From positions 124,001 to 188,000 of the forward strand of contig NZ_AEEC02000003.1 of assembly GCF_000300975.2 (NCBI RefSeq): a stretch of 64,000 bases of DNA. Reading direction: 5' to 3'. The DNA is from Herbaspirillum frisingense GSF30. GTDB taxonomy: Bacteria > Pseudomonadota > Gammaproteobacteria > Burkholderiales > Burkholderiaceae_D. The translations under genes and the position numbers were made by a program. The number at the start of each line of letters is the position of its first letter. The first letter of the stretch is position 1. The notes under the pieces are model-generated. The model saw only the letters and a program-made list of their open reading frames with translations. It searched no databases and was not told the origin of the DNA. Positions 37,411-59,560 of the stretch are shown one piece after another.

Positions 37411-38385
37411 TCAGCCGTCACCGCCGGATAGACCCGCGGCATTCCTGACGGCTGTCATCTGCGCCAGGATGGAGACGGCGATTTCAGCCGGCCTGTGACT
37501 ATCGATAGGCAGACCGATCGGCGCATGCAGTCGCGCAATCTGCGCCGCGCCGAGATCGAACAAGGCCAGCCGCTCGCGACGGCGCTGGCTGCTGGCACGC
37601 GAACCCAGGGCGCCGACATAGAAGGCCGAAGAAGTCAGCGCCTCCAGCAGGGCCATGTCATCCAGCTTGGGATCGTGGGTCAGTGCCACGATGGCAGTGT
37701 GGGAATCGGGCTTCATCTCCAGCACCACATCATCGGGCATGCCGGCGACCAGCCGGGTACCGGCGATATGCCAGCCCGCCGCATACTCCTCGCGCGGATC
37801 GCAGACCAGGACCTCGTAGTCGAGCATCATCGCCATCCTGGCCAGCGCCTGTGACAGCTGTCCGGCGCCGATGATCAAGAGGCGCCAGCGCGGCCCGTAG
37901 CATACGGTGAAATCAGGCTGCGCCAGCACTGGCCCGGGCAAGGCACCGTCGGCATGGCCCAGCCGCGTGCAGCGGGACAGGCCGCTGGCCAGATCGAGCT
38001 GGCGCCGGATGCGCCCCTGCGCGGCGGTGACCTGCAGCACTTCGTCGAGCCAGCCGGAGCCCGGCAGCGATTCGCGTACCAGGACCAGGGTTCCTCCACA
38101 GGGCAAGCCAAACCTTGCGGCCTGCTCCCGCGTGGTGCCATATTCCAGAACAGCGGGGCGCACAGATGTCGCACCCTCCTGACGCACGCGCTCGATGAGG
38201 TCATCCTCGACGCATCCGCCGGAGACCGATCCCACCACGCAACCATCGTCCCGGATGGCCAGCATCGCCCCGGGACTGCGGGGCGCGCTGCCCCAGGTAC
38301 GCGCCAACGTGAACAGGTGTACCTGGTATGCTTGCCGCCGCCAGTCGCGGGCCGTGCGCAAGACCTCCAGATCCAGGCTTTCCAT
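37411..38385 (-). CDS. xdhC: XdhC/CoxF-family molybdenum hydroxylase maturation protein
   Basis: A 324-residue protein with the XdhC N-terminal block (TWGSAPRSPGAMLAIRDDG, GSVSGGCVEDDLIERV, GLPCGGTLVL) and a Rossmann-like C-terminal half (LLIIGAGQLSQALARMA, ALTHDPKLDDMAL). XdhC proteins bind the molybdenum cofactor, help sulfurate it and insert it in xanthine dehydrogenase-type enzymes. The likely client is the CoxL-like enzyme at 41812-44223. It lies 16 bases after the Aer-like receptor gene and is cotranscribed from the promoter at 40024-40053, which shares its operator with the large catabolic array. Confidence 0.9.
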   Translation of the reverse strand: MESLDLEVLRTARDWRRQAYQVHLFTLARTWGSAPRSPGAMLAIRDDGCVVGSVSGGCVEDDLIERVRQEGATSVRPAVLEYGTTREQAARFGLPCGGTLVLVRESLPGSGWLDEVLQVTAAQGRIRRQLDLASGLSRCTRLGHADGALPGPVLAQPDFTVCYGPRWRLLIIGAGQLSQALARMAMMLDYEVLVCDPREEYAAGWHIAGTRLVAGMPDDVVLEMKPDSHTAIVALTHDPKLDDMALLEALTSSAFYVGALGSRASSQRRRERLALFDLGAAQIARLHAPIGLPIDSHRPAEIAVSILAQMTAVRNAAGLSGGDG

Positions 38386-38401
38386 GTCTGTCCGCCCTGC
38401 C

Positions 38402-39955
38402 TCAGACCGCGGCCAGACGAAATACGCCCATCGACAGCTTCACCGCCCCGGCCTGCTCCACCAGCGACGCCGACGAGGCCGCAGCCTGCTCCACCAACGC
38501 CGCATTCTGCTGGGTAATGCGATCCAGCGAAGACAATGCCGCCGCCACCTGCTGCACGCCCTCGCGCTGCTCGATGCTGGCGCGGGAGATCTCGTCGATC
38601 AGGCCGCTCACGCCACCGATGGATGAGACAACCTCAGTGATGGTGGTCGCCGAGGTCTTCACCTGCGCCTGTCCCTGGCTCACGCTGCGTAGCGATGCGG
38701 TGATCAGCTCGGCGATTTCGCGTGCTGCCGTAGTGCTGCGCTGGGCCAGCGTACGCACCTCGCTGGCCACCACCGCAAAGCCACGTCCGTTCTCACCGGC
38801 GCGGGCCGCCTCCACTGCAGCATTGAGCGCCAGGATATTGGTCTGGAAGGCGATGGCCTCGACCACCTTGACGATCTGCCCGATCTGCGCGGCATCGTCG
38901 GCCATGGCCTGCATGGTCTGAACGATGCGATCGAAGGCCTGCCCACCGCGTTGCGCCACATCCGCAGCCGCCACCGCATTGGCCGCCGCAGAGACGGCGT
39001 GATCGGCATTGTTCTGGATGGTGGCGGCCAGTTCCTCCATGCTGGAGGCAATCTCCTGCAGCGACGATGCCTGGCTCTCGGTGCGCTGGGACAGGTCCAT
39101 GTTGCCGGCCGCGATGTCCGAACAGGCCCGCGTCACGCCATGCACATCACGACCGACTTCGCCGATCAGGCTGACCAGGCTGCTCCTCATCAGCAGAAGC
39201 GCCCGTACCAGATCGGCGGCATGTGGCTGGGCGGTCTGATCAAGGGGCGCATCGAGATCACCGGCAGCCATCCGATATGCAAAGTCGGTGGCCTGCTCCA
39301 GCGGCCGCATCAACTGTCGTCGCTGCCAGAGACTGCCCAGCACCAGCATGGCCAACGCCACCGCCAGCATGACCAGTGCCGGCACCCGGCTTGCTGCAGA
39401 CCACAGCAGGCCGGCTGCCAGTGCGCTCGCCAACGGCAAGGCCTGCCACAGCACGATCCGCTTGAGCAACCCCGGTCGCCACAGCCGCTGCACCATCCCC
39501 GGCATACCGGTGCGCAGGAACTGGCCGCCGCGCACGGTCCAGCCACGGGCGCGCCGCTCCTTGAAGCGGCGCAACATGGCAGCGGCGAAACTGACCTGCT
39601 CCGCTGGCGCATGGGTGCGCACCGAGGTCGATCCGATCACGCGCCCGCCTTCCCGCACCAGCGAGACATTGGTCATGGCCCAGATACGCTGCCCATCGCT
39701 GCCCCGGATGCAGGTCAGTCCGGCCCACCGGCGTCCCTGCTCGATCGTGGTACGGCGCATGTCCTTGACGGCTTCGGCCGGCACGTCGGGATCGATCAGG
39801 CGCGTGTAGGGCATGCCCACCAGCTCCTGCATGGGGATACCTACCTCGTCGGCGAACGCCTGGTTGGCATAGGTGATGATGCCCTCCGAGCTGGTCCGGC
39901 TGATCAGATACTGTCCCGGCCGCAGTGCGCGACCATCTTGCTGCTGGCTCACCAT
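38402..39955 (-). CDS. Aer-like chemoreceptor with N-terminal PAS domain
   Basis: A 517-residue receptor. The N-terminal PAS domain (about 12-125; ISRTSSEGIITYANQAFADEVGI) faces the cytoplasm. Two close hydrophobic helices lie at about 170-215, then a HAMP-like segment and the signalling domain with the usual tip [20 protein letters not shown]. This layout is that of Aer energy taxis receptors. The start is taken as ATG 39955 behind AGGAGG; a GTG one codon later is possible. Placed before xdhC and under the shared operator, it may guide cells to the substrate or to the redox state its oxidation creates. Confidence 0.88.
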   Translation of the reverse strand: MVSQQQDGRALRPGQYLISRTSSEGIITYANQAFADEVGIPMQELVGMPYTRLIDPDVPAEAVKDMRRTTIEQGRRWAGLTCIRGSDGQRIWAMTNVSLVREGGRVIGSTSVRTHAPAEQVSFAAAMLRRFKERRARGWTVRGGQFLRTGMPGMVQRLWRPGLLKRIVLWQALPLASALAAGLLWSAASRVPALVMLAVALAMLVLGSLWQRRQLMRPLEQATDFAYRMAAGDLDAPLDQTAQPHAADLVRALLLMRSSLVSLIGEVGRDVHGVTRACSDIAAGNMDLSQRTESQASSLQEIASSMEELAATIQNNADHAVSAAANAVAAADVAQRGGQAFDRIVQTMQAMADDAAQIGQIVKVVEAIAFQTNILALNAAVEAARAGENGRGFAVVASEVRTLAQRSTTAAREIAELITASLRSVSQGQAQVKTSATTITEVVSSIGGVSGLIDEISRASIEQREGVQQVAAALSSLDRITQQNAALVEQAAASSASLVEQAGAVKLSMGVFRLAAV

Positions 39956-40010
39956 CCCCCTCCTCAGCACCGTCCGGCCAACCCTCCGGCGGCGATAGTT
40001 TCCCGCGATT

Positions 40011-40053
40011 AATAACGAACATCATTCTGTTATTTTGCATCCTTCGATGTCAA
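40011..40053 (-). promoter_or_regulatory. Promoter and operator of the Aer-like receptor/xdhC operon
   Basis: On the minus strand TTGACA (40048-40053) and CAGAAT (40024-40029) are 18 bases apart. The downstream 16-mer AATGATGTTCGTTATT (complement of 40011-40026) matches 14 of 16 bases of the element before the Rieske operon. Outer arms AATAAC/GTTATT make it an imperfect palindrome. Confidence 0.7.
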
Positions 40054-40387: not shown

Positions 40388-40439
40388 AATAACGATTGAC
40401 ATTCATTTTATTGAGATTAAATAATGTCATTCATTATTT
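40388..40439 (+). promoter_or_regulatory. Promoter and operator of the second porin gene
   Basis: TTGACA (40396-40401) is followed after 16 bases by TAAATA (40418-40423). AAATAATG (40419-40426) and CATTATTT (40432-40439) form a perfect palindrome over the -10. The 16-mer AATGTCATTCATTATT matches 14 of 16 bases of the Rieske operon element, and the 14-mer TTGACATTCATTTT around the -35 is identical to the one there. Confidence 0.75.
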
Positions 40440-40569: not shown

Positions 40570-41667
40570 GTGAAGAAACGTCTGTTAGCCGCCGTCTCCG
40601 CCGGCCTGTGCCTGGGGGGGCTGGGTACCGAAGCGATGGCCCAGAGCAGTGTCACCATCTACGGCATCATCGATACCGGGGTCGAATATCTCAATCACAC
40701 CAATGCCGCCGGCCAGGGCAAGCTGCGTACGCTGCCGCTGACCGGACTGCTGCCCTCGCGCATCGGTTTCAAGGGAGTCGAGGACCTGGGCGGTGGCTTG
40801 CGCGCCTTCTTCAATCTGGAAAGCGGCTTCGTGCCGACCACCGGCGGCATGGGCCAGGGTAACCGCCTGTTCGGACGACAATCCAATGTCGGCCTGATGG
40901 ACCCGACCTGGGGTACCTTCACGCTGGGTCGCCAGTACAACATGACGGCCATCTCGCTGATCGCCGCCGACATCATGGGGCCGGCCAACCACGGCCTGTC
41001 CAACATGGACTCCTACCTGCCCAACACGCGCAGCGACAATGCGCTGGGCTACATGAACAAGATCGGCAACACCACCGTGGGCGCCACCTATAGCTTCGGT
41101 CGCGACACCTCCACGGCGGGCGGGCCTGCGGCCACCAATTGCGCTGGCGAGAACGCCGCCGATGCGCAAGCCTGTCGCCAGTGGACGGCGTTGATCAAGT
41201 ACGACACTGCCACCTGGGGCGTGGCCACCGCCTACGACACCCTGCGCGGCGGCGCCGGGGCGGGCAACCTGCTCACCAGCAGCAACTACAAGGACAACCG
41301 CGCCTCGTTCAATGGCTGGTTCAAGGTCGGCGATCTGAAGATCGGTGGTGGCCTGATTGCCCGCCACCTGCAACGTGCGGTCGATATCAACTACAACCTC
41401 TGGTATCTCGGCGCCAGCTACGCGCTCACGCCACAGTGGCAGGTCGAAGGCCAGGTGGCCCATCTGGATACCCGCAACTCACCCGACGACAGCACGCTGG
41501 GAACGGCACGGGCGATCTACTTCCTGTCCAAGCGCACCAGCCTCTACGCGTCGTATGCGTACATCAAGAATCGCGGCAACGCCGCCATTGCCGTCAGCTC
41601 CGGCAGCACGGTCGGTGTCGGCCAGAACCAGTCCAGCGTGATGGCCGGCATCCGGCATACCTTCTGA
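40570..41667 (+). CDS. OmpC-type porin of the catabolic regulon
   Basis: The start is the GTG at 40570, behind AAGGGGAA; upstream in-frame Met codons would place a non-signal-like extension before the signal peptide. The 365-residue precursor has a signal peptide ending at EAMA-Q, the first strand QSSVTIYGIIDTGVEY, the eyelet region LFGRQSNVGLMDPTWG and the terminal Phe (GIRHTF). It is a second trimeric porin, distinct from that at 17347. Its promoter shares the operator of the Rieske/molybdenum hydroxylase array, so it probably gives outer-membrane entry for the same compound. Confidence 0.92.
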   Translation: MKKRLLAAVSAGLCLGGLGTEAMAQSSVTIYGIIDTGVEYLNHTNAAGQGKLRTLPLTGLLPSRIGFKGVEDLGGGLRAFFNLESGFVPTTGGMGQGNRLFGRQSNVGLMDPTWGTFTLGRQYNMTAISLIAADIMGPANHGLSNMDSYLPNTRSDNALGYMNKIGNTTVGATYSFGRDTSTAGGPAATNCAGENAADAQACRQWTALIKYDTATWGVATAYDTLRGGAGAGNLLTSSNYKDNRASFNGWFKVGDLKIGGGLIARHLQRAVDINYNLWYLGASYALTPQWQVEGQVAHLDTRNSPDDSTLGTARAIYFLSKRTSLYASYAYIKNRGNAAIAVSSGSTVGVGQNQSSVMAGIRHTF

Positions 41668-41764: not shown

Positions 41765-41790
41765 AAAAAAGGCGCCGTCGCGACGGCGCC
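41765..41790 (-). terminator. Terminator of the large minus-strand array
   Basis: The 20-base perfect palindrome at 41771-41790 (GGCGCCGTCG and its complement) is followed, on the minus strand, by six T. It lies 22 bases past the coxL stop and closes the array that begins at 58533. Confidence 0.85.
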
Positions 41791-41811
41791 TGCTCTTCCA
41801 TCTGGTCGGCC

Positions 41812-44223
41812 TCAGAAGGGAGGCAGTCTTGCCTCGCCCTGACGCATCTCGGGATGATGCAGCACGTCCAGCACATGTGCCGGCGTAAACGGCTGCTGCC
41901 ATACACCCTGCCCAAGCGGGCGCAAGGCGTCGTTGACGGCGCACCAGATGGCGCCAATGGCCCCCACCGTCCCGGCCTCGCCCACCCCCTTGGCACCGAG
42001 ACTGGTTTCGCGCTCGGGCGTGGTCACATGGCCCACATGGATCTGGGGCATCTCTGAGGCCATCGGAATCAGATAGTCCGCCAGCGAGGCATTGCTCATC
42101 TGCCCGTTCTCGGAATAGATGCACTGCTCGAACAGGGCCGCGCCTATCCCCTGCACCACGCCACCTCGGATCTGCTCATCGGTCAGCAGCGGGTTGACGA
42201 TACGTCCGCAATCTTCCACCACCCATACGTCCAGCACGCGGATCATGCCGGTCTCGATATCGACCTCGACCTGCGCCGCCTGCACCCCATTGGCGGCGAA
42301 GTAGGGCTTGCCGGTCGGCGCATAACTGCGCTCCATCGTCAGTTCCGGGATGACGTCCAGCTTGATGGCGGTCGAATCGTAATGCGCCTTGAGCGCCACC
42401 TCCGCCAGGCTCATCAAGGCTTCGCCGTCACGCCCGATGATCATGCCATCGACGATATCGAGCCCGTCCTGCGATTGCTCGCCAAGGGCCGCTGCGATCG
42501 ACAGGATATTGGCGCGCAGCTGCGCTGCGGCCAGCAGGGCAGCTTCCCCGGCCAGGGAGATGCCGCGCGAGGCCCAGGCACCGCCCCCCAGTGGATCGCG
42601 GGAGGTATCGCCGGCCGCCACCGCCACCGTCTCCAGCGGACTACCCATGGCCTGGGCCACGATCTGGGTCAGGCCGGTGCGCGTGCCCTGCCCCTGGTCG
42701 GTCGCGCTCGTGCGGCACTGGATGTGACCAGAGGGCAGCAGGCTCAGGCGCACTCCCTCCTTGCCGGCCACCCTGACCTGATTGGGTCCGTAAAGGCCCG
42801 CGCCCACGCCGGTCAGCTCGACGAAGGTGCACAAGCCGATGCCACGATAGACGCCGCGCTGGCGCAGCGCCTCCTGCGTGGCGCGCAGCTGGCGGTAATC
42901 CATGTTCTCCAGCAACTGATCCATGCAGGCGTCCAATGACAGCGGCCCCAGCGGGATGCCGCCGGCAGCAGGCAGCATCGGCGCCTCGGCCGGACGCGCC
43001 GGCAGATGATTGCGGCGGCGCATGGTGACCGGATCCATGCCGATGGCCGCCGCCGCGTCATCGATCAGTTGTTCGATGACGGCGCAGGCGATGGGCTGGC
43101 CCACGGCACGATAGGCACCGGTCGGTACCTTGTTGACGAAGGCCCCGCGCACCCGCCCGCGGAAGGCGTCGATGCGGTAGGCCGAGCCGCACAGGTCGAG
43201 CGCCTGCAAGGCTTCGCCGATACTGGAACGCGGGTAGGCGGACACCGCCCCGAAGCAGAACAGCAGATCCACGTCCAGCCCCAGCAGGTGTCCTTCGGCA
43301 TCCACCGCCAGTTGCGCCTCGACGCTGGCGTCCCGGGCGTGGACATCGGAGACGAAGGATTCCAGGCGGTCCGCCTGGAATTTGACGGGCCGGCCCAGCA
43401 GCATCGCAATGGCGACCACCGCGATCTCGTCGGCATAGGCGTGCAGCTTGATGCCGAAAGCGCCCCCCACGTCGGGGCTGGCGACCCTGACCCGCTCCAG
43501 CGGCAGGCCCAGCAGGCTGGCGTAGATCTCCTGCATCTGGAAGGGCGCCTGATGGGATTGCTGGATATCCAGCTCGCCGGTGCGCCGGTCAAAGCTGGCC
43601 AGGATGCCACGTGGCTCCAGCGGCACACCGGTCTGGCGACCGAAGCTGAAACGGCGTCGTACCACCTGGGCAGCGCCGGCAAATGCGGCGGCCACATCAC
43701 CCTTGCCGATCTTGCGCTCCAGCGCCAGGTTGTGCTCGATGGCCGGGTGGCAGGGTGGACAGCCGGGTTCCAGTGCGGTGGTCGGGTCGACCACGGGCTC
43801 GCCCTCCTCCCAGTCGATCTCGATCAGTTCGAGCGCGTCCTCGGCCTGCGCGCGCGTAGCGGCCACCACCGCCGCCACCGCTTCGCCCTGCCAGAACACT
43901 TCGTCGATGGCCAGCGGATTCTGCGGTGCCGAGACATGCTCCGGCCACATGGCAAAGCGGGTGGTCCAGCCAGCGCAGACGGTCGCCAGGTCGGCGCCGG
44001 TGACGACCGCACTCACCCCGGGCATGGCCGCAGCGGCGTCGACATTGATCGCGTGCAAACGCGCACGCGCGAACGGACTGCGGTAGAACACCACATGCTG
44101 CATATCGGCCAGCACCAGGTCGTCGAGATAGCGTCCGCGTCCGGCCACGAAACGCTCGGCATCCGCGCGGGCGACGCTACGGCCGATCAGGCCAGCGGCC
44201 GCGGTCTGGGCGGCGGCGCTCAT
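41812..44223 (-). CDS. coxL: Molybdenum hydroxylase large subunit (CoxL-like)
   Basis: An 803-residue molybdopterin subunit of the xanthine dehydrogenase family. The start at 44223 overlaps the coxS stop by four bases. GGAFGIK binds the cofactor; the base-catalyst glutamate is Glu749 in GAKGVGEAG. Where true CO dehydrogenase has the loop AYRCSFR, this protein has AYRAVGQP, so it is not a CO oxidiser. With CoxS and CoxM it would hydroxylate a carbon, often next to a ring nitrogen, using water, and pass electrons to FAD. Nicotinate, quinoline, purine or aldehyde type substrates are possible. Confidence 0.9.
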   Translation of the reverse strand: MSAAAQTAAAGLIGRSVARADAERFVAGRGRYLDDLVLADMQHVVFYRSPFARARLHAINVDAAAAMPGVSAVVTGADLATVCAGWTTRFAMWPEHVSAPQNPLAIDEVFWQGEAVAAVVAATRAQAEDALELIEIDWEEGEPVVDPTTALEPGCPPCHPAIEHNLALERKIGKGDVAAAFAGAAQVVRRRFSFGRQTGVPLEPRGILASFDRRTGELDIQQSHQAPFQMQEIYASLLGLPLERVRVASPDVGGAFGIKLHAYADEIAVVAIAMLLGRPVKFQADRLESFVSDVHARDASVEAQLAVDAEGHLLGLDVDLLFCFGAVSAYPRSSIGEALQALDLCGSAYRIDAFRGRVRGAFVNKVPTGAYRAVGQPIACAVIEQLIDDAAAAIGMDPVTMRRRNHLPARPAEAPMLPAAGGIPLGPLSLDACMDQLLENMDYRQLRATQEALRQRGVYRGIGLCTFVELTGVGAGLYGPNQVRVAGKEGVRLSLLPSGHIQCRTSATDQGQGTRTGLTQIVAQAMGSPLETVAVAAGDTSRDPLGGGAWASRGISLAGEAALLAAAQLRANILSIAAALGEQSQDGLDIVDGMIIGRDGEALMSLAEVALKAHYDSTAIKLDVIPELTMERSYAPTGKPYFAANGVQAAQVEVDIETGMIRVLDVWVVEDCGRIVNPLLTDEQIRGGVVQGIGAALFEQCIYSENGQMSNASLADYLIPMASEMPQIHVGHVTTPERETSLGAKGVGEAGTVGAIGAIWCAVNDALRPLGQGVWQQPFTPAHVLDVLHHPEMRQGEARLPPF

Positions 44224-44714
44224 GCATCCTCCCCGGCGGCCATTTCGATGGCATCGACGATGGCCTGGTAACCGGTGCAACGGCAGTAATTGCCCGAGAT
44301 GGCATCGCGGATCTCCAGGCGGCTGGGGCAGGCCTTGGCCTGCAGCAGTTCGTTGGCCGTCATCAGCATGCCCGGCGTACAGAATCCGCATTGCATGGCA
44401 TTGCGCGTCACGAAGGCGCGTTGCAGGGCGGCGATCTCGCCGCTTTCGGCCAGCCCCTCCAGGGTCTCCACGCTCAGGCCGTCGACCTGCACCGCCAGCA
44501 TCAGGCAACCGCGCACCACCGCGCCATCGACGCGCACATTGCAGGCACCGCAGACGCCGACCTCGCAGCCGACGTGAGCTGCCGTCAATCCCATGTCCTG
44601 GCGCAGGAAGTCCACCAGGTTGCGGCGCACCGGCACCAGGCAATTGACGTCCTTGCCGTTGAGGGTGAATTGGATGTTGGCGTGTTCCACGCAACGGACG
44701 GACAGGTCATCCAT
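44220..44714 (-). CDS. coxS: Molybdenum hydroxylase [2Fe-2S] subunit (CoxS-like)
   Basis: A 164-residue iron-sulfur subunit with eight ligands: Cys50, 55, 58 and 70 for the plant-type cluster (GCEVGVCGAC) and Cys109, 112, 144 and 146 for the helical-domain cluster (CGFCTPG, NYCRCTGY). It moves electrons from the molybdenum centre to FAD. It overlaps coxM upstream by eight bases and coxL downstream by four. Confidence 0.95.
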   Translation of the reverse strand: MDDLSVRCVEHANIQFTLNGKDVNCLVPVRRNLVDFLRQDMGLTAAHVGCEVGVCGACNVRVDGAVVRGCLMLAVQVDGLSVETLEGLAESGEIAALQRAFVTRNAMQCGFCTPGMLMTANELLQAKACPSRLEIRDAISGNYCRCTGYQAIVDAIEMAAGEDA

Positions 44715-49070: not shown

Positions 49071-49081
49071 GATGGCCTCTC

Positions 49082-52045: not shown

Positions 52046-52422
52046 GCAGCCACCAGACGCAGGTACAGCACACCCTCTTCGAGACGGATCTCGTGGCTGC
52101 GTACATCACGTGTCAAGGGCGCCGACAAGGCCTTGCCGGAACGGATGTCGAACAGTCCGGCATGCAGGGGGCATTCGACCTCGAAGCCGTCGATCTCGCC
52201 TTCCGACAAGCGCGCATTGCCATGGCTGCAGATGTCGTCGATGGCATATACCTCGCCATCCACCAGGAACAGGCCGACCTGCGCACCGCCCAGCTTCAGC
52301 GAGCGACAGGCGCGATCACCAAACACCTCGGCCAGCGGCCCCAGCGTCAACCAGCCCTGGGCATCGGGCGACGGCGGGGACGCCTGGGCGTCTGCCGCCA
52401 CGATAGGCAGGATGCCATTCAC
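52042..52422 (-). CDS. Rieske-type [2Fe-2S] ferredoxin
   Basis: A 126-residue ferredoxin. Cys65 and His67 (CSHGNA) and Cys84 and His87 (CPLHAG) are the four ligands. About 20 extra residues precede the usual start of the fold. It most likely shuttles electrons from the FAD reductase (54792-56057) to the Rieske oxygenase (57256-58533). It overlaps the PyrD-like gene and the asparaginase-like gene by four bases each. Confidence 0.93.
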   Translation of the reverse strand: MNGILPIVAADAQASPPSPDAQGWLTLGPLAEVFGDRACRSLKLGGAQVGLFLVDGEVYAIDDICSHGNARLSEGEIDGFEVECPLHAGLFDIRSGKALSAPLTRDVRSHEIRLEEGVLYLRLVAA

Positions 52423-53357
52423 AGGCCGGCCCTCGCTTCCAGCAATTTGGCCTCATGCACCTTCATGGCACCGACCAGGTCGCGGATGCGGGTGATGCCA
52501 CGACGTACACAATAGGCCTGGAGGTCGTCGATGACGCGCGGCATGGCGCTGGTGCTGATGAAATTGGCCGTGCCCACCTGTACTGCCGTGCAACCGGCCA
52601 GCAGGTATTCAATGGCGTCCTCGGCGGTGGCGATGCCACCGCAACCGATGACCGGAATGCTGACCGCCTGCGCCGCCTGGTAAGCCATGCGCAACAGGAT
52701 GGGCTTGGTGGCACTGCCGGTGATCCCGCCCATCAGGTTGGCGACCTTGGGTTGATGACTTTCGATATCGATGGCCATGGCCAGGATGGCGTTGGAACTG
52801 ACCAGGGCGTCTGCGCCCCCCTGCTCGGCGGCACGGGCGATCACGGCGATGCTGCCGACATTGGGCGAGAGCTTGGCCCAGACCTGCAGGTCGGTGTTGC
52901 GCTTCATCGCCTTGATCACCGCTTCGGTGGCCTGTGGGTCCATGCCGAAGGCCTGGCCATCCTTCTTCAGGTTGGGGCAGGAGATATTGGCCTCGATGGC
53001 GGCCACGCCCGGCACGCTCAGGCGTGCGGCCAGCTCGCCGAACTCTTCCACGGTATTGGCTGAAATGCTGGCCACCAGAGGGGGCGTGTAATTCCGGTAG
53101 AACGGCACCAGCTCTTCCAGATAGTGCTCCGGCCCCTTGCTGGGGATACCGATGGAGAACAAGGTCGAATTGCGCAGCTCGGCCACGCGTGGCGGGGTGT
53201 TGCCCTCGCGCAGGTCGCTGGTGATGGTCTTGGTGACGATGGCACCCAGACGATTGAGATCGATCACCTTGGCCATGCCCTCGGCAAAGGTCCCGGAGCC
53301 GGGCATGACCGGATTCTGCAAGGTCAGCTTACCGATGGATACGCTCATGTCTACCAT
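52419..53357 (-). CDS. PyrD-like flavoenzyme (class 1B dihydroorotate dehydrogenase family)
   Basis: A 312-residue FMN enzyme. The start at 53357 is chosen because AGGAG lies eight bases upstream and it overlaps the partner gene by seven bases. PGSGTFAEG, ITKT-like IVTKTITSD, NISCPN, WAKLSPNV and IGCGGIATAEDAIEYLLAGCTAVQVG are the FMN-barrel landmarks of class 1B PyrD. Its partner at 53351-54235 looks like PyrK. In a catabolic array this pair more likely oxidises or reduces a dihydro-ring intermediate than makes pyrimidines; it could also be a dihydropyrimidine dehydrogenase relative. Confidence 0.85.
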   Translation of the reverse strand: MVDMSVSIGKLTLQNPVMPGSGTFAEGMAKVIDLNRLGAIVTKTITSDLREGNTPPRVAELRNSTLFSIGIPSKGPEHYLEELVPFYRNYTPPLVASISANTVEEFGELAARLSVPGVAAIEANISCPNLKKDGQAFGMDPQATEAVIKAMKRNTDLQVWAKLSPNVGSIAVIARAAEQGGADALVSSNAILAMAIDIESHQPKVANLMGGITGSATKPILLRMAYQAAQAVSIPVIGCGGIATAEDAIEYLLAGCTAVQVGTANFISTSAMPRVIDDLQAYCVRRGITRIRDLVGAMKVHEAKLLEARAGL

Positions 53358-54235
53358 GTCACTGTCTCCTGCGCGTCGAACACCGGGCCATCCCAGCACA
53401 CGCGTCTGTAACTCATCGTTTCCGAACCAGGGCTCTTGCGGAATGGCCGCACGCAGGCAAAGCACATGCCCAGCGCACATCCCATCAATTGCTCCAGCGC
53501 CACCTGGGCCGGCACGTCCAGCTCCTGGCCCAGTCGCTGCAACGCCAGCAGGAAGCGGTTGGAGCCGCAGGTGGTCAGCAGGTCGAAGGGCAGCTGCGCA
53601 TGCCGTTCACGTACCAATTTTTCGATGTGGGCGATGTCACTGCTGCCATCCTGGTCATGCACCACGATGACATCTGCCCCCACCGAGCGCAGGTATTGCT
53701 GCGACATCACCAAGGCCGGCGAACGCGCCGAGAGGATGGCCGTCACCCTTGCTCCGCGCTGCACCGCGTGCTGGGCCAGCGGGGCCATGGTGGCCAGGCC
53801 CACGCCGCGCGCCAGCACCAGCACATGGCGGGCCTGCGGCGGCAGAGTGAAGCCCTGGCCGACCGGCCCGAAGGCGTCCAGCGTGGCGCCCGGCTCCAGG
53901 GTGGCCAGGCCACGGGTACCGGCGCCCTGCACCTTGTAGAGAAATTCGATGGTGCAGTCCTGCGGCGAAACGCGGTACAGGCTCATCGGTCGGCGCAGGT
54001 AAGGCACGTCGTTGCCGGAGGGCGGGCAGTTGAGGTGGAAGAACTGACCCGGCAGCACCGCCAGCGCAATTGGCGGCGCCTTCAGGACCAGGTGCTTGTA
54101 CTCGGCGTTGACCCACGCATTGCTCAGTACCTGGCACAGGTTCTCGGCGATGGTGAAATCTGCGCAGTGGCCGCCGCAGGACGAGGCCGCTGTACTCGGC
54201 GCTGGCTGCAGCGGGATAGGGACGCTATTGGTCAT
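53351..54235 (-). CDS. PyrK-like FAD/[2Fe-2S] electron transfer subunit
   Basis: A 294-residue protein; start 54235 (MTNSVPIPLQ). It has the ferredoxin reductase-type layout: FAD-binding RRPMSLYR, nucleotide-binding VLVLARGVGLATMAPLAQHA and a C-terminal cluster site Cys253, Cys258, Cys261 and Cys280 (CALGMCFAC...RVC) as in PyrK. It couples the PyrD-like flavin to NAD(P). A Cys-rich CGGHC motif near the N-terminus (about residue 20) is extra. It follows the SnoaL-like gene by five bases. Confidence 0.87.
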   Translation of the reverse strand: MTNSVPIPLQPAPSTAASSCGGHCADFTIAENLCQVLSNAWVNAEYKHLVLKAPPIALAVLPGQFFHLNCPPSGNDVPYLRRPMSLYRVSPQDCTIEFLYKVQGAGTRGLATLEPGATLDAFGPVGQGFTLPPQARHVLVLARGVGLATMAPLAQHAVQRGARVTAILSARSPALVMSQQYLRSVGADVIVVHDQDGSSDIAHIEKLVRERHAQLPFDLLTTCGSNRFLLALQRLGQELDVPAQVALEQLMGCALGMCFACVRPFRKSPGSETMSYRRVCWDGPVFDAQETVTW

Positions 54236-54240: not shown

Positions 54241-54795
54241 CTAGAGGTGGGTGGAAGAGGATGCACGCACGGCGGCATCGGTAATCTGCTCGAAGGACGT
54301 CACCAGCGGGAAGGCTCCTGCATCGATGGGCAGCATCTGGGTCTGCTCGAAGCGCATGCGTGAACAGAGCCACTGTCCCTGCTGGTCGCGGGCATATTCT
54401 TCGTAGGTCAGCGCGCCCAGCAGCACCGCCTTCTTGGTCTGCTCACGCAGCGCGATCTGCCACAGTCGCCAGCGTGCCGAGGCGACGTCGCCTTCCACGC
54501 TGATCTCCGGGCTGCCGTAGTAATGCAGCGCATAGCACCAGGGCGAGCGCATGAACCATTGCGCCAGCGCATCGCGCCCGACCAGGCTGGCACCGAACTC
54601 CGCGCCGCCTTCCCAGATGGCGTCCTCGGTAAAACAGGCGGCCTGGGCAAGCGCGATCTTCTCCATGCGCAGCGGCGGCTGCCGCTGGTAGTTGGTCGTA
54701 TATTTCTGATCGGCCAGGCTGGCATAGCGTGCCTTGAGCTGGCGGATCGCTTCGGCTGCTTCCAGTGCGGCCACACGTTGTTCCAGGTTGCTCAT
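54241..54795 (-). CDS. SnoaL/NTF2-like protein of the Rieske array
   Basis: A 184-residue cone-fold protein. It opens with a helix EQRVAALEAAEAIRQLKARYASLAD, followed by a loop and sheet (YGSPEISVEGDVASARWRLWQIALRE). The fold is the same as that of small (beta) subunits of ring-hydroxylating dioxygenases, and also of dehydratases and isomerases. Since the array has no standard beta-subunit gene, this is a candidate partner for the oxygenase, or an enzyme acting on its product. It overlaps the FAD reductase gene by four bases. Confidence 0.7.
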   Translation of the reverse strand: MSNLEQRVAALEAAEAIRQLKARYASLADQKYTTNYQRQPPLRMEKIALAQAACFTEDAIWEGGAEFGASLVGRDALAQWFMRSPWCYALHYYGSPEISVEGDVASARWRLWQIALREQTKKAVLLGALTYEEYARDQQGQWLCSRMRFEQTQMLPIDAGAFPLVTSFEQITDAAVRASSSTHL

Positions 54796-56057
54796 GAGCG
54801 CACCAGTTCCTTGAGCGAAATGGCAGGATCGCGCAGCACCGCTGCATCGATGGTGGAGCCGCGGCGTACCAGTTCTTCAAGCTGGCGGCGCTCCCGGCCA
54901 CTGTCGACCAGCATGCCGCCGGCCACCCTGCCCTCATGCAGCCAGAGCAGCACGCCGGCCCGCTCCCCTGGCGGAATGCGCGATATCACCAGGTCGCCCG
55001 GCGTATAGATGCCGACCACCTGGATATTGCGATCGAGCTGGTCGGTCCACATCCACGGCACTTCGATATACGGCTCCGGCCGGCCGACGATAGCGGCCGA
55101 TACCGCACGCGCCTGATTCTCGGCATTGCGCCAGGTCTCCTGGCGCAATGCCCGCCCATACAAGGGGCTGAAGCTGTTGGCCACGTCGCCCACGGCATAG
55201 CACCATGGCGCATCCGGATTGCGGCACCAGGCATCGGTCAGCACGCCGTTATCCAGGCGTACCGGGCTGCCTTCCAGGAAGTCCGTGTTGAGCGAAATGC
55301 CCACCGCCACCAGCACCAGGTCGGCCTCCAGCGCCATTTCCTGTCCGGCGCACTGGGCGTCGATGCGCAATCCTTCGGCCGTCTTCGCGATGCCCGATAC
55401 GCTCACCCCGGTCAGCACCTTGATGCCGCGCTGTTCGTGCAGCGCCTGCAGCCACTGCGACCCTTCCGGCGGCAGGCAACGCGCCATCACCCGGGCGCCG
55501 CCTTCGACCACGGTCACTTCCATGCCCAGGGCAGCCGCCGAGGACGCCGCCTCCATGCCGATCACGCCACCACCGATCACCAGCAGACGACGCTGCTGGG
55601 CCATGGCCGGGCGCAACGCGAGGCAGTCTTCGATGGTGCGCAGGACCCTGACTTCGGGCAGATCCGCACCGGGGATCGTCAGGCCACGAGCCTGACCACC
55701 GGATGCCACGACCAGAATGTCGAAGGGGATGACCTCGCCGCTCTCCAGATGGGCCTGACGCAAGTCGTCGATACGGGCGACCACACCCTGGCGATGCTCG
55801 ACCATGGCGGGGTCCTCCCAGAAACTGCGTGGCCCCAGCATCAGTTCGTCCACGGTCTTGCTGCCCAGCAGCAGTTCCTTGGACAGGGCCGGCCGTTCAT
55901 AGGGGGTGTGCGGCTCCGCACCCAGCAGCAGGATGCGGCCACCGAACCCATCCGAGCGCAGGGCTTGCGCCACGCGCCCACCGGCATGCCCGGCACCGAC
56001 GATCAACACACGCTGATCCTGCGGCGCACCCTGCGCTTGCGGCTGATGGTGGTTCAT
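54792..56057 (-). CDS. FAD-dependent ferredoxin reductase
   Basis: A 421-residue two-dinucleotide-domain flavoprotein. FAD motif GAGHAG is at 21-26, the second (NAD) motif is LLVIGGGVIGMEAA near 160-172, and AVGDVA near 290 is the second FAD contact. TPYERPALSKELL is the hallmark of ferredoxin/rhodocoxin/putidaredoxin reductases. It should feed electrons from NAD(P)H to the Rieske ferredoxin and thence to the oxygenase. It overlaps neighbours by four bases at both ends. Confidence 0.92.
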   Translation of the reverse strand: MNHHQPQAQGAPQDQRVLIVGAGHAGGRVAQALRSDGFGGRILLLGAEPHTPYERPALSKELLLGSKTVDELMLGPRSFWEDPAMVEHRQGVVARIDDLRQAHLESGEVIPFDILVVASGGQARGLTIPGADLPEVRVLRTIEDCLALRPAMAQQRRLLVIGGGVIGMEAASSAAALGMEVTVVEGGARVMARCLPPEGSQWLQALHEQRGIKVLTGVSVSGIAKTAEGLRIDAQCAGQEMALEADLVLVAVGISLNTDFLEGSPVRLDNGVLTDAWCRNPDAPWCYAVGDVANSFSPLYGRALRQETWRNAENQARAVSAAIVGRPEPYIEVPWMWTDQLDRNIQVVGIYTPGDLVISRIPPGERAGVLLWLHEGRVAGGMLVDSGRERRQLEELVRRGSTIDAAVLRDPAISLKELVRS

Positions 56058-56422
56058 GACACCGACTCCTCGACCGGCGGCAGCTGGTCCAGGCGGGTGA
56101 TGACGCGATAGAGCGCGCCTCGCTCACTCTGACAGGTCCAGCGCCGCGGCTCATTGGGTGGAATGATGATGCCCTCGCCCGGGGACAGTTCGTAGCGCTC
56201 GCCAGCGGCTTCGACCAGGAACATGCCCTCCAGTACGGTTGCCACTTCCTCCCCTTGCGGTTGCGGCGGCACCTCGCTGTGCTGGCCACGACGGAAGACG
56301 CCGATGCCGATATTCAGGTGCTGGCCCTCGACGGTGTGCATGCCGGGCGCTGCCTGCGGATTCTGCCAGTCGGTTTGCAGCGGCTGGCAATGCGGATCGG
56401 TCGGGTTCGACAGGCTGGACAT
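56054..56422 (-). CDS. Cupin-domain protein 1
   Basis: A 122-residue single-domain cupin (GVFRRGQHSEVPPQPQGEEVATVLEGMF, YELSPGEGIIIPPNEPRRW). The first metal-binding motif has His48 and Glu59-Glu60-like positions but lacks the usual second His of the HxH pair, so metal binding is uncertain. It overlaps the FAD reductase by four bases and lies one base from the second cupin gene. It may bind or convert an oxygenase product, or be a regulatory binding protein. Confidence 0.8.
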   Translation of the reverse strand: MSSLSNPTDPHCQPLQTDWQNPQAAPGMHTVEGQHLNIGIGVFRRGQHSEVPPQPQGEEVATVLEGMFLVEAAGERYELSPGEGIIIPPNEPRRWTCQSERGALYRVITRLDQLPPVEESVS

Positions 56423-56423
56423 C

Positions 56424-56837
56424 TCAGCGGCTCCTGTTCTTGAGGGGGTAATACGGCGTCGAATCCTCCGGGCCGTACTCCTTGCGCGCCGGGGTCACCA
56501 CGTTCAGGCGCAGCGACACGCCCTCGGCACCGAAGCGGTTGCTGCCGTAATGCAAAACCCCGGCGGGAATGATGAGCGCATCACCGCTCTCCATCACCGA
56601 TTCGAGGTCGGTCTCTTCGCTGTCACTGCTTTCGAAAACGGAGCAGCCACCCAGCAGCTGCAAGGACGCTTCCTCGCCGTGGCTATGCGACTTGGCAGGC
56701 AGGTCATGCCCCTGCGCGGCGACGAACTTGACCACCGCCACGCTGACGGACGCGCCGAACATGTGCTTGCCATACAAGCCATCGGCCACGATCTCCTTGA
56801 GGTTATCGTCGATGGCGAACACTCTGCATTTGGGCAT
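56424..56837 (-). CDS. Cupin-domain protein 2
   Basis: A 137-residue cupin. SHSHGEEASLQLLGGCSVF supplies the HxH...E pattern of motif 1, and SGDALIIPAGVLHYG supplies the motif 2 histidine, so a metal site looks complete, unlike cupin 1. Small metal cupins in catabolic operons act as dioxygenases, isomerases or epimerases. Its position straight after the oxygenase and a small unknown gene suggests action on the first oxidation product. Confidence 0.82.
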   Translation of the reverse strand: MPKCRVFAIDDNLKEIVADGLYGKHMFGASVSVAVVKFVAAQGHDLPAKSHSHGEEASLQLLGGCSVFESSDSEETDLESVMESGDALIIPAGVLHYGSNRFGAEGVSLRLNVVTPARKEYGPEDSTPYYPLKNRSR

Positions 56838-56867
56838 GAAAGCTCCTTGGTTGATGACAGCGTCGGC

Positions 56868-57242
56868 TCAGATCGGCGGACGCATGACGAACTTCTCATC
56901 GGCCACGAAGCGCGAGAACTCGTAGCCATCGATCACGCCCGGCTGCTGGTAGGCTTCCACCGCCGGCGCGACCTCGGCCAGGGACAGCAGCATGTACATC
57001 AGCGCTGCTTCCGGCGGCGGCATGGCATCCAGTTCGAAGCCGTTGAGGTAGGCGACGATGGCATCGACATCGGCCAGCATGGCGTCCTTGAAGGCCACGA
57101 TGTCGGCGAACGCGCTGGTATTGCGCATACGGGTGCGCTCGGTCTCGGTGGCCAGGCTCCAATGGCTGAACGGCATCAGATGGGCAAAACCGGCCGGAAG
57201 CGTGATGGCACTTTGCGGGCTTGCTGGTTGCGGCGAATTCAT
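56868..57242 (-). CDS. Hypothetical protein of the Rieske array
   Basis: A 124-residue protein I do not recognise. The start at 57242 follows GGAG. It is mainly helical (TSAFADIVAFKDAMLADVDAIVAYLNGFEL, PPEAALMYMLLSLAEVAPAVEAY) and has a short C-terminal segment ending RPPI. It lies 13 bases after the oxygenase gene, the place where a small partner or assembly protein of the oxygenase could be expected. Confidence 0.75.
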   Translation of the reverse strand: MNSPQPASPQSAITLPAGFAHLMPFSHWSLATETERTRMRNTSAFADIVAFKDAMLADVDAIVAYLNGFELDAMPPPEAALMYMLLSLAEVAPAVEAYQQPGVIDGYEFSRFVADEKFVMRPPI

Positions 57243-57255
57243 GGCGGGCGACTCC

Positions 57256-58533
57256 TCAGGCCTTGGTTTCTTCATTGACGATGCGATCGACTACGTGGGC
57301 GCCGTGGCGCACCAGCAGCTCATAGTCCTGCAGGATCATTTCCTTCTTCACGCCGGTCTGCACCGCGCTCTGGGTGCGTTCCAAGGTGCTCAGGTCTTCC
57401 AGCAGGACATCGCGCAGGGCGACCTTCATGTATTCGAGATAGAAGCGACCGCCGGCAGTCTTCATTTCCGGGTAGTACACGCGCGCCTCCAGCAGGGTCT
57501 TGCCCTGGGAGATCGGCCGGAAGTTGTAGGCCTGGAAGTAGTTCGGACGCAGCGACAGGTAGAAGTCCGGAAACACGACATTGATGTCGAAGAGCCAGTT
57601 CTCGTGGCCGGTCCAGTTCATGCCCTTGGGCAGGTCTTCCTTGCGGAAGTGGTAGCTGGCCGCCCCCATGCCGGCACGCAGTGCAGCGGCAGCAATGGGC
57701 TTCTTCACGGCCGAGTCGGCGATGGCCTTGCTGGCCTCCGCGCCACCTGCGGTCACCGCATTGGGATTGCCGTAGACCGACTTGGGATTGCCGGCGATGG
57801 ACAGGCGTCGATGGAATTGTCCGCACAGTGCATCCAGGGGCGGCATGGCGCCGTCTTCGGCGGTATCGATGGCATCGGCGATCGAATGGCCGTGCACATA
57901 GGCCACGTGGTAGGCCTCCTGGAATGCGTCCAGCGCCAGCTTCCAGTTGCAATTGACCACCGTGGTCCACTGGAAGCCGGTGGTGATCTTGTCGAAGGGA
58001 TAGCCTTCGATATCACCGAACATGGGTTGCAGGAACTGCGCCAGCGACAGTTCCGGGGAGGGATCGAGGTTGATGAAGATGAAGCCTTGCCAGACTTCGC
58101 AGGCCACGCGCGACAGACCGTGGTCGCACTTGTCCAGATCGAAGAAGGAGCCCTCTTCCGGCACGCCGGTCAGGTTGCCCTGCAGATCATAGGCCCAGCC
58201 GTGGAACTTGCAGAAGAACTTGCGCGCCTGGCCGCGCTTCTCGTAGACGATCTGGTTCATGCGGTGCGAGCAGACGTTATGCATGGCATTGATTGCGCCC
58301 TGCTTGTCGCGTACCACGATGATGGAAGCTTCGCAGGCTTCCAGGTCCTTGACGAAGTAGTCGCCGGCGGCGGGAATCTCTTCCACGCGCCCCACGTGCA
58401 GCCAGGTCTTCTTGAAGATCCTGGCCTGCTCCTTGTCGTAGTAGGCGGTGGAGATGTACGGCTCGACAGGAACAGGCCCCTTGCCCAGTTCCGGATAGCG
58501 ATCGTGCAGATGCAGCTTGATGACCTTGTTCAT
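57256..58533 (-). CDS. Rieske non-heme iron oxygenase, large subunit
   Basis: A 425-residue oxygenase; start 58533 has GGGAG just upstream. Cys88, His90, Cys108 and His111 (CSHRMN, CKFHGW) bind the Rieske cluster. His209 and His214 (EAYHVAYVH) bind the mononuclear iron, with the third ligand probably in the later segment FDINVVFPDFY. The residue that bridges the two centres, normally Asp, is Glu206. An insertion rich in Ala and Gly around 235-275 is unusual. It is the first gene of the long array. With the ferredoxin and FAD reductase it forms a three-component oxygenase; ring dihydroxylation or N/O-demethylation are both possible. Confidence 0.92.
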   Translation of the reverse strand: MNKVIKLHLHDRYPELGKGPVPVEPYISTAYYDKEQARIFKKTWLHVGRVEEIPAAGDYFVKDLEACEASIIVVRDKQGAINAMHNVCSHRMNQIVYEKRGQARKFFCKFHGWAYDLQGNLTGVPEEGSFFDLDKCDHGLSRVACEVWQGFIFINLDPSPELSLAQFLQPMFGDIEGYPFDKITTGFQWTTVVNCNWKLALDAFQEAYHVAYVHGHSIADAIDTAEDGAMPPLDALCGQFHRRLSIAGNPKSVYGNPNAVTAGGAEASKAIADSAVKKPIAAAALRAGMGAASYHFRKEDLPKGMNWTGHENWLFDINVVFPDFYLSLRPNYFQAYNFRPISQGKTLLEARVYYPEMKTAGGRFYLEYMKVALRDVLLEDLSTLERTQSAVQTGVKKEMILQDYELLVRHGAHVVDRIVNEETKA

Positions 58534-58915
58534 GAGCTCCCTCACTCGTGGATGGCAGGCCCGATCAGAGAGGGGCCTGAGAACCGATGCGTCCTAATAA
58601 CGAATGTCATTCTGTATTCCGCAAAAATGAATGTCAAGCGTTTTTGATCGATTTCAAGGACAGGTGAAAAAGGGCCTGGCGACACGTCTTCAGCATGCTG
58701 CACCACAACACGACAGCGGCCTGCAGCGACGCACGCCGGGGTAGCGGATTCGCCCTCTTAGCGCACCGGCATCGCACCAATATCGCGCTCAAAAGCGAAT
58801 ATTGTTTAAAGGATTCACCGTTGTGGGGAAGAGAGAAGATCCGGGGACAGGGACAGCAGGAAAGGGCTTGCGTGCTAGAATCCACGCCATTCATTACCAG
58901 CACGCAAGAGGAATC
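58534..58915. other. Divergent region between the array and its TetR gene
   Basis: It carries the shared promoter/operator (58596-58637). It also holds an inverted repeat with one bulge, CAATATCGC (58778-58786) and GCGAATATTG (58795-58804), about 110 bases before the TetR start, which may serve TetR autoregulation. No gene is supported. Confidence 0.55.
58596..58637 (-). promoter_or_regulatory. Promoter and operator of the Rieske/molybdenum hydroxylase array
   Basis: On the minus strand TTGACA (58632-58637) and CAGAAT (58609-58614) are 17 bases apart, about 75 bases before the first ATG. The 16-mer AATGACATTCGTTATT (complement of 58596-58611) overlaps the -10 and start point and recurs with 14 of 16 matches before the Aer-like gene and the porin gene. 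The -35 context TTGACATTCATTTT is identical to that of the porin promoter. Confidence 0.75.
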
Positions 58916-59560
58916 GTGGCGCAAATCAAGAAGAGCGGCATGCGCGAGGCCATCCTGGAATCGGCCTTCGATCTGTTTTCCCGCAAGGGCTATACGCCGA
59001 CCACCATGGCCGAGATCGCACGGGCGTCGAACATGACCGTGGCCAATCTCTATGTGTACTTCGATTCCAAGCTGGCCATCCTCTATGAGATCTACCAGCC
59101 CTGGCTGGAACAGCAGCTGCAGGCGCTGGCCGAGTCGGTCCGCAAGTTCCGCACGCCGCGCTCACGCCTGCGCCGGGTCTTCACGGGGATCTGGGGCGAC
59201 ATACCAGCCAGCGATCATTCCTTCGCCAACGCGCTGATCGAAGCCCTGGCCGTGTCGCCCCAGGGCATGACCAAGCCCAATACGTTGCTGATGGATGTGG
59301 AAACCTTCCTGACGGCCCTCATCAGCGAGTCGCTCCCCCCGGAGCGTGCTCACCTGGTGCGCAACGACCTGCTGGCCCATGTCATCTGGATGGCGTTCGA
59401 CGGCTTCACCATCAACCAGCATCTCGGCGACGTGCGCGATGTCAGTGCCATCGCCGACATCATGACCAATCTGCTGCTGGGCGAGACAGAGGCGCCGGCA
59501 GCGGCCCCGGAAACTCCGGCCGCTCCCAAGCGAACCGCCCGCAAGGCGCGGGCGGAATAA
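58916..59560 (+). CDS. TetR-family regulator, divergent to the catabolic array
   Basis: A 214-residue TetR protein. GTG 58916 is chosen as start, preceded by AGAGGAA; the frame upstream does not look coding. The helix-turn-helix is at about residues 9-55 (REAILESAFDLFSRKGYTPTTMAEIARASNMTVANLYVYF), followed by a helical ligand domain and an Ala/Pro/Lys-rich tail. It diverges from the Rieske-led array and is the best candidate for the protein that binds the operator shared by three promoters. The ligand would be a substrate or intermediate of the pathway. Confidence 0.9.
   Translation: MAQIKKSGMREAILESAFDLFSRKGYTPTTMAEIARASNMTVANLYVYFDSKLAILYEIYQPWLEQQLQALAESVRKFRTPRSRLRRVFTGIWGDIPASDHSFANALIEALAVSPQGMTKPNTLLMDVETFLTALISESLPPERAHLVRNDLLAHVIWMAFDGFTINQHLGDVRDVSAIADIMTNLLLGETEAPAAAPETPAAPKRTARKARAE

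Follow-up and report, generated by a model that had tools for sequence, protein, structure and literature searches.

In the iac pathway of Pseudomonas putida 1290 and Caballeronia glathei (PMC7225977, PMC11373566), a Rieske oxygenase, an amidase and a SnoaL-type protein are associated with a catechol end. The same traits are found or predicted in the locus studied here, a putative catabolic operon of 19 genes in Herbaspirillum frisingense GSF30 (contig NZ_AEEC02000003.1, positions 124,001 to 188,000; this whole stretch of 64,000 nucleotides is called the window). However, iac starts with an acyl-CoA-dehydrogenase-like monooxygenase and a short-chain dehydrogenase/reductase (SDR), whereas the window cluster has a molybdenum hydroxylase (CoxMSL) and a PyrK/PyrD-like pair (PyrKD) instead; neither an IacA-type flavin monooxygenase nor an SDR is among its 19 genes. 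A skatole-type cluster on an Acinetobacter plasmid is alike in a Rieske alpha subunit (37% identical) with a small partner, a SnoaL protein, a ferredoxin, an amide hydrolase and cat genes. It carries the same gene kinds at the same spacing as the skatole-induced genes of Acinetobacter piscicola p38, a strain known to us from the paper only, in which skatole raises the expression of 1684 (Rieske alpha), 1687 (styrene monooxygenase) and 1690 (ferredoxin) (PMC11434297). These induction data are the nearest evidence at the level of expression and bear on the window cluster indirectly. In the Rhodococcus ska cluster, ring cleavage is proposed to be the work of a three-component ring-hydroxylating oxygenase (PMC13101512). 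The skatole and ska clusters employ a styrene/indole-type flavin monooxygenase with an SDR and an acetamidase, where the window cluster has CoxMSL with PyrKD and an asparaginase-like enzyme.

Other kinships concern single parts of the cluster. Orotate-type operons share a related PyrK/PyrD, but their pocket residues differ and they hold none of the other window-cluster genes. The Alicycliphilus plasmid pDP3 carries CoxL, CoxG and XdhC homologues (50%, 49% and 47-48% identical), a Liv-type importer and an amidase, and the Arthrobacter plasmid pLDW-10 an asparaginase 42% identical with a molybdenum hydroxylase and XdhC; in contrast to the window, both loci have a coenzyme A (CoA) ligase and a deacetylase-type hydrolase, and lack a Rieske system and PyrKD. 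A molybdenum hydroxylase, an adenylate-forming enzyme, a deacetylase-family hydrolase and a tricarballylate dehydrogenase were seen in both (L069 and L075). The isonicotinate route runs through tricarballylate, and we take the two loci to be probably of isonicotinate (pyridine-4-carboxylate) type. Finally, the quinoline/2-oxoquinoline pathways, with quinoline 2-oxidoreductase and a Rieske 8-monooxygenase, are alike in placing a molybdenum hydroxylase before a Rieske enzyme acting on a benzo-fused lactam; we know of none with PyrKD or an asparaginase-type amidase.

The 19 open reading frames (ORFs) of the window cluster, predicted from the sequence alone in an earlier note, are all present and open on the minus strand from 58533 to 41812, starting at the ATG of the Rieske alpha gene. 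Most neighbours overlap as that note had stated (12 of the 18 junctions), but the four-base overlap that it gave for most junctions was found at 8; the remaining six junctions are gaps of 1, 5, 30, 54, 82 and 98 bases. The genes and their terminator, in order of transcription, are:

57256..58533, minus strand: Rieske oxygenase alpha subunit, 425 amino acids (aa) (PF00355 + PF00848; below all NCBIfam cut-offs)
56868..57275, minus strand: small helical partner protein, 135 aa, adjoining the alpha gene in relatives
56424..56837, minus strand: cupin-like protein 1, likely metal-binding (HxHGEE + PxxxxH (PA...H.G.N) pattern)
56054..56422, minus strand: cupin protein 2 (PF07883; cupin metal His not kept in the alignment)
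54792..56057, minus strand: flavin adenine dinucleotide (FAD) ferredoxin reductase (PF07992 + PF14759; HcaD/AndAa-like, below cut-off)
54241..54795, minus strand: SnoaL-like protein (SnoaL_4, PF13577), possible beta-like subunit
53351..54235, minus strand: PyrK-like flavin/Fe-S electron-transfer subunit (DHODB Fe-S, PF10418)
52419..53357, minus strand: PyrD-like class 1B enzyme with changed substrate pocket (passes NF005574 and TIGR01037)
52042..52422, minus strand: Rieske ferredoxin (PF00355; AndAb/HcaC-like, below cut-off)
51011..52045, minus strand: asparaginase-family amidase (PF00710 + PF17763), HGTATMEE, the usual Asp of HGTDTMEE missing
50364..50912, minus strand: CoxG-like protein (PF06240)
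49082..50281, minus strand: Liv-type solute-binding protein LivK (PF13458; nearest solved chain 4evq)
45667..49085, minus strand: importer subunits LivH, LivM, LivG and LivF (PF02653 twice, PF00005 twice; overlaps of 4-8 bases)
44707..45612, minus strand: CoxM, FAD subunit of the molybdenum hydroxylase (PF00941 + PF03450)
44220..44714, minus strand: CoxS, 2Fe-2S subunit (PF01799 + PF00111)
41812..44223, minus strand: CoxL, molybdopterin subunit, 803 aa, ATG start (PF02738, PF20256, PF01315; GAYRAVGQ loop, GVGE)
41770..41791, minus strand: intrinsic terminator directly past coxL (9-bp stem + T run)

The protein families named earlier were recovered by Pfam and profile assignments, with the exception of the first cupin, which belongs to no Pfam family and displays a cupin-type pattern only. 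Beside the operon, the XdhC, receptor and porin genes were also identified, together with a divergent regulator gene and the putative control sites:

58802..59560, plus strand: TetR-family regulator (coordinates of the listed ORF, the gene probably starting further downstream; TetR models below cut-off)
58788..58800, minus strand: second half-box copy at the tetR start; AP02 and G662 share its exact form, RV1423 and alder98 have a changed one
58596..58637, minus strand: promoter/operator of the 19-gene operon, kept in 4 lineages
40570..41667, plus strand: porin (PF13609), with a probable GTG start before a signal-peptide-like stretch on reading the DNA
40396..40438, plus strand: same promoter/operator, before the porin (DNA scan, relatives)
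40011..40053, minus strand: same promoter/operator, before receptor and xdhC (DNA scan, relatives)
38402..39970, minus strand: chemoreceptor (PAS and methyl-accepting chemotaxis protein (MCP) profile matches)
37411..38385, minus strand: XdhC-like maturation factor, below curated cut-offs

A composite element, TTGACA-N17/18-AGAAT(or TAAAT)-TTCRTTATT, precedes the operon, the porin gene and the receptor-xdhC pair. Taken alone, the -35/-10 match ahead of the operon lacks significance (2 found against 3.1 expected in shuffles), but alignment of this region in four lineages revealed a conserved TTGACATTCA, a TACAGAATG element and TTCGTTATT. The promoter and the strong terminator at opposite ends of the operon, both proposed in the earlier note, are thus borne out by the promoter bases kept in four lineages and by the 9-bp stem with its T run. 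The composite is retained before the operon and before the porin gene in 4/4 lineages, RV1423 having one changed base in the first hexamer of the porin copy, and before the receptor in the three Herbaspirillum relatives in which the receptor adjoins. In G662, the porin is located at the opposite flank of the cluster with its box still present, and no receptor was found in the stretches read. A strict pattern derived from the operon and porin sites yielded no third copy in the own genome, and its reversed control none; given this derivation, only the absence elsewhere is informative. The other scanned stretches (L019, L020, L046-L048 and L061-L064) contained no composite. The window holds four copies of a looser 10-base box where shuffling predicts 0.27, and the exact 13-base half-box is found at the operon and tetR and nowhere else in the genome. 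One shared promoter/operator at three places points to a real regulon, and the operon, the porin and the receptor-xdhC pair are predicted to form it. The tetR gene is divergent from the operon in 4/4 relatives, and one conserved operator stands at the target promoters, as expected of a TetR regulon; the TetR-family protein is probably the switch, acting via ATTCRTTATT boxes.

The same order of 19 genes with tetR was found in Herbaspirillum AP02, RV1423 and alder98 and in G662, which belongs to another genus of the same family, so the synteny search in other Burkholderiales that the earlier note proposed returned the full order in three Herbaspirillum genomes and one genome of another genus. 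Protein identities to the window cluster are 95-100% for AP02, 61-92% for RV1423 and alder98 and 67-92% for G662. The distribution is narrow. The Rieske alpha occurs in 4/34 genus genomes, own included (E 1e-40), and in the own genome only among 399 genomes sampled from the order (E 1e-60) and 397 from the phylum (E 1e-70); these two sets are samples, and alpha relatives of other orders exist on plasmids. The PyrK-like protein was detected in 5/294 family genomes, own included. In the alphaproteobacterium Paroceanicella, CoxM, CoxS, CoxL, the Rieske core, PyrKD, the ferredoxin and the asparaginase lie together in a different gene order, with tripartite ATP-independent periplasmic (TRAP) transporter genes nearby and no Liv genes within the block. 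Its ferredoxin reductase (L019:3164-4389) is annotated as two overlapping ORFs, both matching the window reductase. In Azospirillum, the Rieske core and asparaginase are present without CoxMSL in the 41 kb read; a 75-residue pyrD remnant there (L020:23011-23236), annotated as hypothetical, suggests loss of PyrKD. A Cupriavidus necator plasmid (L037:13618-14364 and L059) holds scattered remains: the last part of the alpha gene lies together with the 135-aa protein and cupin 1, and a piece of the asparaginase is located about 84 kb away; these pieces are likely a decayed copy of the cluster.

From the conserved gene order, the shared promoter/operator and the changed PyrD and amidase pocket residues described below, we propose, at a probability of about 0.5, that the locus is a regulon for the inducible breakdown of an N-heteroaromatic carboxylic acid with its nitrogen on a benzene ring. 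The porin and Liv importer would bring the compound in, and CoxMSL, matured by XdhC, would hydroxylate the carbon beside the nitrogen to give a lactam. Next, PyrK/PyrD would act on the C-C bond adjoining the lactam carbonyl, in a redox step like the one that its relatives catalyse on orotate. Oxygenation of the nitrogen-bearing ring carbon and opening of the lactam to an amide would fall to the Rieske system (alpha, small partner, SnoaL protein, ferredoxin and reductase). From this amide the asparaginase-like amidase would free ammonia, and the ring would be released as catechol and pass to the cat genes. The regulon would probably be switched by the TetR-type protein on its ATTCRTTATT boxes. 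One regulated pathway with dedicated sensing and entry, as the earlier note had suggested, appears well supported by the promoter/operator shared by the operon, the porin and the receptor-xdhC pair; the N-heteroaromatic nature of the substrate, the other half of that suggestion, is supported by enzyme kinship and is to be read as a prediction. For the passage from lactam to amide, we rely on the enzyme families and on the recurrence of amide hydrolases beside Rieske alpha relatives (5/10 loci).

The oxygenase and hydroxylase have the hallmarks of their families. The Rieske alpha keeps the CxH..CxxH and HxxxxH motifs and the distal Asp, as read from the alignment of relatives, and has both a ferredoxin and a reductase at its side, as expected of a Rieske ring-hydroxylating oxygenase. 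CoxMSL comprises the three subunits with their domains and the GxGE glutamate (as GVGE), which we take to be the hallmark of xanthine-oxidase-type molybdenum hydroxylases. CoxL is not a carbon monoxide (CO) dehydrogenase, because it scores below both family cut-offs (449.8 against 991 for TIGR02416; 487.5 against 950 for NF040766) and lacks the active-site motif: the loop reads GAYRAVGQ where AYxCSFR, presumably the CO dehydrogenase loop, was expected. CO oxidation was rejected on these grounds. Among solved structures, a CoxL is matched first (414 bits), followed by quinoline 2-oxidoreductase (401 bits), the best match other than a CO dehydrogenase. Four plasmid relatives of CoxL were opened (47-52% identity): one lies in the tricarballylate dehydrogenase locus of pDP3, one beside urate-breakdown genes and two without clear role.

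The PyrD-like enzyme appears to have a rebuilt pocket. At the position of Asn67 (Lactococcus A numbering), Phe is found in 6/6 aligned cluster copies, the Azospirillum fragment included, whereas PyrD of orotate-type operons (5/5) and of Lactococcus B has Asn there. At Ser/Thr194, all five cluster copies spanning the site carry Ala, a change that the five orotate-type operons do not show; these two orotate contacts of class 1B dihydroorotate dehydrogenases are thus absent from cluster PyrD. The AP02 protein, 99.7% identical to the window copy, was left out of this alignment. The positions of Lys43, Asn127, Asn132 and Asn193 and the loop Cys are kept where spanned. According to PMC12060061, these Asn and Lys positions are among the residues hydrogen-bonding orotate-type ligands in the Trypanosoma enzyme. 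Three close named PyrD relatives, 84-98% identical, are all from Herbaspirillum, two distant ones are 41% and 46% identical, and PyrD of orotate-type operons is 51-59% identical to the window protein. Among 92 plasmid records with a match, five were opened, and in 5/5 of these loci the PyrK relative (about 48-51%) lies with a Zn-dependent hydrolase and an orotate phosphoribosyltransferase or dihydroorotase. Plasmids of several genera carry such operons, in which PyrK, PyrD and the Zn hydrolase are joined by a phosphoribosyltransferase or dihydroorotase and by a small unnamed protein (L033, L034, L035, L036 and L038).

A similar change is seen in the amidase. The Asp of HGTDTMEE, presumably the amino-group contact in asparaginases, is replaced by Ala in 6/6 cluster copies, the two solved enzymes shown being of the HGTDTMEE type; what we take to be the catalytic Thr and Lys are kept. 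The score for type II L-asparaginase (TIGR00520) is 199.7, below the cut-off of 314.3. On two Roseomonas plasmids (L060:5995-7002 and L072:8995-10002), an HGTA asparaginase gene stands directly behind genes for 3-oxoacid CoA-transferase and 3-oxoadipyl-CoA thiolase.

As cat genes adjoin the cluster, catechol is the best-supported candidate for the ring product. The genes catB, catC, catA and catD lie beyond xdhC in RV1423 and beyond the porin in G662, and catA, catB, catC and a catD-like gene occur near the Azospirillum cluster, which makes 3/7 cluster-bearing loci searched. In RV1423 and G662, CatA scores above the cut-off for catechol 1,2-dioxygenase. Two catechol 1,2-dioxygenases above the cut-off are encoded in the own genome elsewhere than the cluster, one beside an anthranilate dioxygenase gene (above cut-off), the other beside a benzoate-dioxygenase-like gene (just below). 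An MhpB-type enzyme was not detected in the own genome and was found in 1/34 genus genomes, RV1423 only (L050; E 1e-30), which weakens 2,3-dihydroxyphenylpropionate as an end point.

Several observations weigh against the proposed route. The cluster PyrD passes the dihydroorotate dehydrogenase cut-offs (326.1 against 269 for NF005574; 290.6 against 270 for TIGR01037). HGTA is also present outside such clusters, in the two Roseomonas enzymes and in Terrarubrum, with HGTN in Arthrobacter, so the loss of the Asp marks a wider subfamily and is not specific to the cluster. The pLDW-10 CoxL is only 30% identical to that of the window, and the pDP3 importer gave no match to LivK. Half of the ten annotated Rieske-alpha loci have no amide hydrolase neighbour, the plasmid gene tables being incomplete. 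No cat genes were found in the stretch searched in 4/7 loci (AP02, alder98, Paroceanicella and the window genome, the last with 20 kb of flank at either end), and the CatA of Azospirillum falls short of the catechol 1,2-dioxygenase cut-off. The G662 sequence between porin and catB can be read as a hairpin with T's behind it, and cat may therefore not be driven by the box there. The half-box at tetR is altered in two lineages (RV1423 and alder98). Lastly, quinoline-4-carboxylate, one of the substrates considered, should leave a substituted catechol, a poor fit to the cat genes.

Within the proposed route, a quinoline-4-carboxylate-type acid best explains the PyrD and amidase pockets, because its 2-oxo form is a look-alike of orotate and its opened form a look-alike of asparagine with an aryl in place of the amino group. 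PyrKD would reduce 2-oxo-1,2-dihydroquinoline-4-carboxylate, the Rieske system would open it to a dihydroxyphenyl-succinamate and the amidase would hydrolyse the latter. This would account for the Lys, Cys and ring Asn that PyrD keeps, for its hydrophobic replacements and for the lost Asp of the amidase; moreover, kin of CoxL and the amidase sit in loci that we read as being of the pyridine-4-carboxylate type. 2,3-Dihydroxyphenylsuccinate is an intermediate of quinoline-4-carboxylate breakdown; the literature search did not retrieve it, and by title and abstract the open-access papers found do not describe the breakdown of quinoline-4-carboxylic acid. The expected ring product, however, is a 3-substituted catechol and not catechol, and no MhpB-type enzyme was found in the own genome at E 1e-30 (1/34 in the genus, in RV1423). 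This substrate class competes with an indolic acid and, taken alone, is considered unlikely.

An indolic acid, IAA included, is another substrate that the same reading could accommodate, and it too is judged unlikely. In its auxin-type form, which would make a third aerobic route of this kind and is doubtful, CoxMSL would convert IAA to 2-oxindole-3-acetate, PyrKD dehydrogenation and addition of water would give 3-hydroxy-2-oxindole-3-acetate, the Rieske system would release catechol and a four-carbon keto-amide, and the amidase would yield oxaloacetate and ammonia. Unsubstituted catechol would thus be formed directly, in agreement with the cat neighbours. The hosts are plant-associated genera, and the solved solute-binding protein nearest to LivK, 4evq, is an aromatic-acid binder. 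The IAA binder IadK2 belongs to an aromatic-acid class of such proteins (PMC10374108), and the route parallels Iac, in which IAA passes through 2-oxindole-3-acetic acid (Ox-IAA) and dioxindole-3-acetic acid (DOAA) to catechol (PMC7225977). Against it, the same genome already has an iac-like locus (G000:C83, L062:580-10775), named from gene content only, with an acyl-CoA-dehydrogenase-like monooxygenase, a 123-aa protein, an amidase, Rieske alpha and beta subunits and a reductase. The alpha of the cluster is only 34% identical to the iac-like alpha over residues 29-224. The latter is present in 17/34 Herbaspirillum genomes, including all four that carry the cluster, and IAA as substrate is weakened by this coexistence.

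The locus might also consist of two separate modules, an aldehyde/CO-type CoxMSL and a Rieske pathway, merely adjacent and co-transcribed. Relatives of CoxL and of the Rieske core are each found apart elsewhere, and a CoxL is the top solved match of the window CoxL. Regular occurrence of the parts alone with another known role had been named in the earlier note as a ground for refuting a single pathway, and it was found in part: Azospirillum has the core and amidase without CoxMSL, and CoxL relatives lie in other loci. But CoxMSL, core and PyrKD stand together in Paroceanicella too, in another gene order and with TRAP in place of Liv, and CoxL reaches 487 where the CO dehydrogenase cut-off is 950 and lacks the active-site motif; the two-module explanation is improbable. 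Orotate or pyrimidine use, with PyrKD acting on orotate and the rest accessory, is in accord with PyrD passing the dihydroorotate dehydrogenase cut-offs and with the five PyrK relatives (about 50%) opened all lying in orotate-type loci, but we regard it as highly improbable, as Asn-to-Phe in 6/6 and Thr-to-Ala in the five spanning cluster copies have no counterpart in five orotate-type operons, and neither such a Zn-dependent hydrolase nor a phosphoribosyltransferase is among the 19 genes. The changed pocket residues led us to reject true orotate use, and the pyrimidine-type substrate, which the earlier note had listed among its options, is unlikely since the orotate-contact positions are changed in every aligned cluster copy.

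Returning to the N-heteroaromatic acid regulon, the combination of a molybdenum hydroxylase, a PyrKD with rebuilt pocket, a Rieske oxygenase without a classical beta subunit and a former asparaginase, with porin, importer and chemoreceptor under one operator box, could tentatively represent a new aerobic route for benzo-fused N-heteroaromatic acids, a claim to which we give somewhat less than even odds. The gene set was not found described in the open-access literature searched, which is weak evidence of absence, in line with the earlier note, whose author knew of no described pathway with exactly this set. If correct, relatives of dihydroorotate dehydrogenase and asparaginase would be re-used here for aromatic catabolism in a new N-heterocycle route, and a Phe in place of Asn67, or HGTA where HGTD is usual, would warn annotators that these two enzyme names probably do not apply. 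The shared operator offers a ready reporter for the inducer, hence for the compound sensed and eaten.

Concerning the smaller proteins, the 135-aa partner gave no Pfam match and no significant PDB match, and its AlphaFold model (predicted local distance difference test, pLDDT, 67) has a helical core but is too weak for a fold search. The SnoaL protein, with a pLDDT of 48.6, gave a prediction unusable for that purpose; the classical Rieske beta subunit family PF00866 was not matched, this candidate giving SnoaL-type matches only. The HxHGEE and PxxxxH pattern of cupin-like protein 1 is present in 7/7 aligned copies, as read by eye. With regard to the neighbours of Rieske alpha relatives, the five loci with an amide hydrolase include a Variovorax isochorismatase-family gene, and the count excludes an eleventh locus, which is without annotation. 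An obligatory pairing of this Rieske family with an amide hydrolase was considered and given up, five of the ten loci having such a neighbour and five not. The 135-aa partner also has a relative on a plasmid of Sphingobium indicum (L055:6968-7330), located between IS6100 copies beside lin genes, with no adjoining Rieske alpha annotated.

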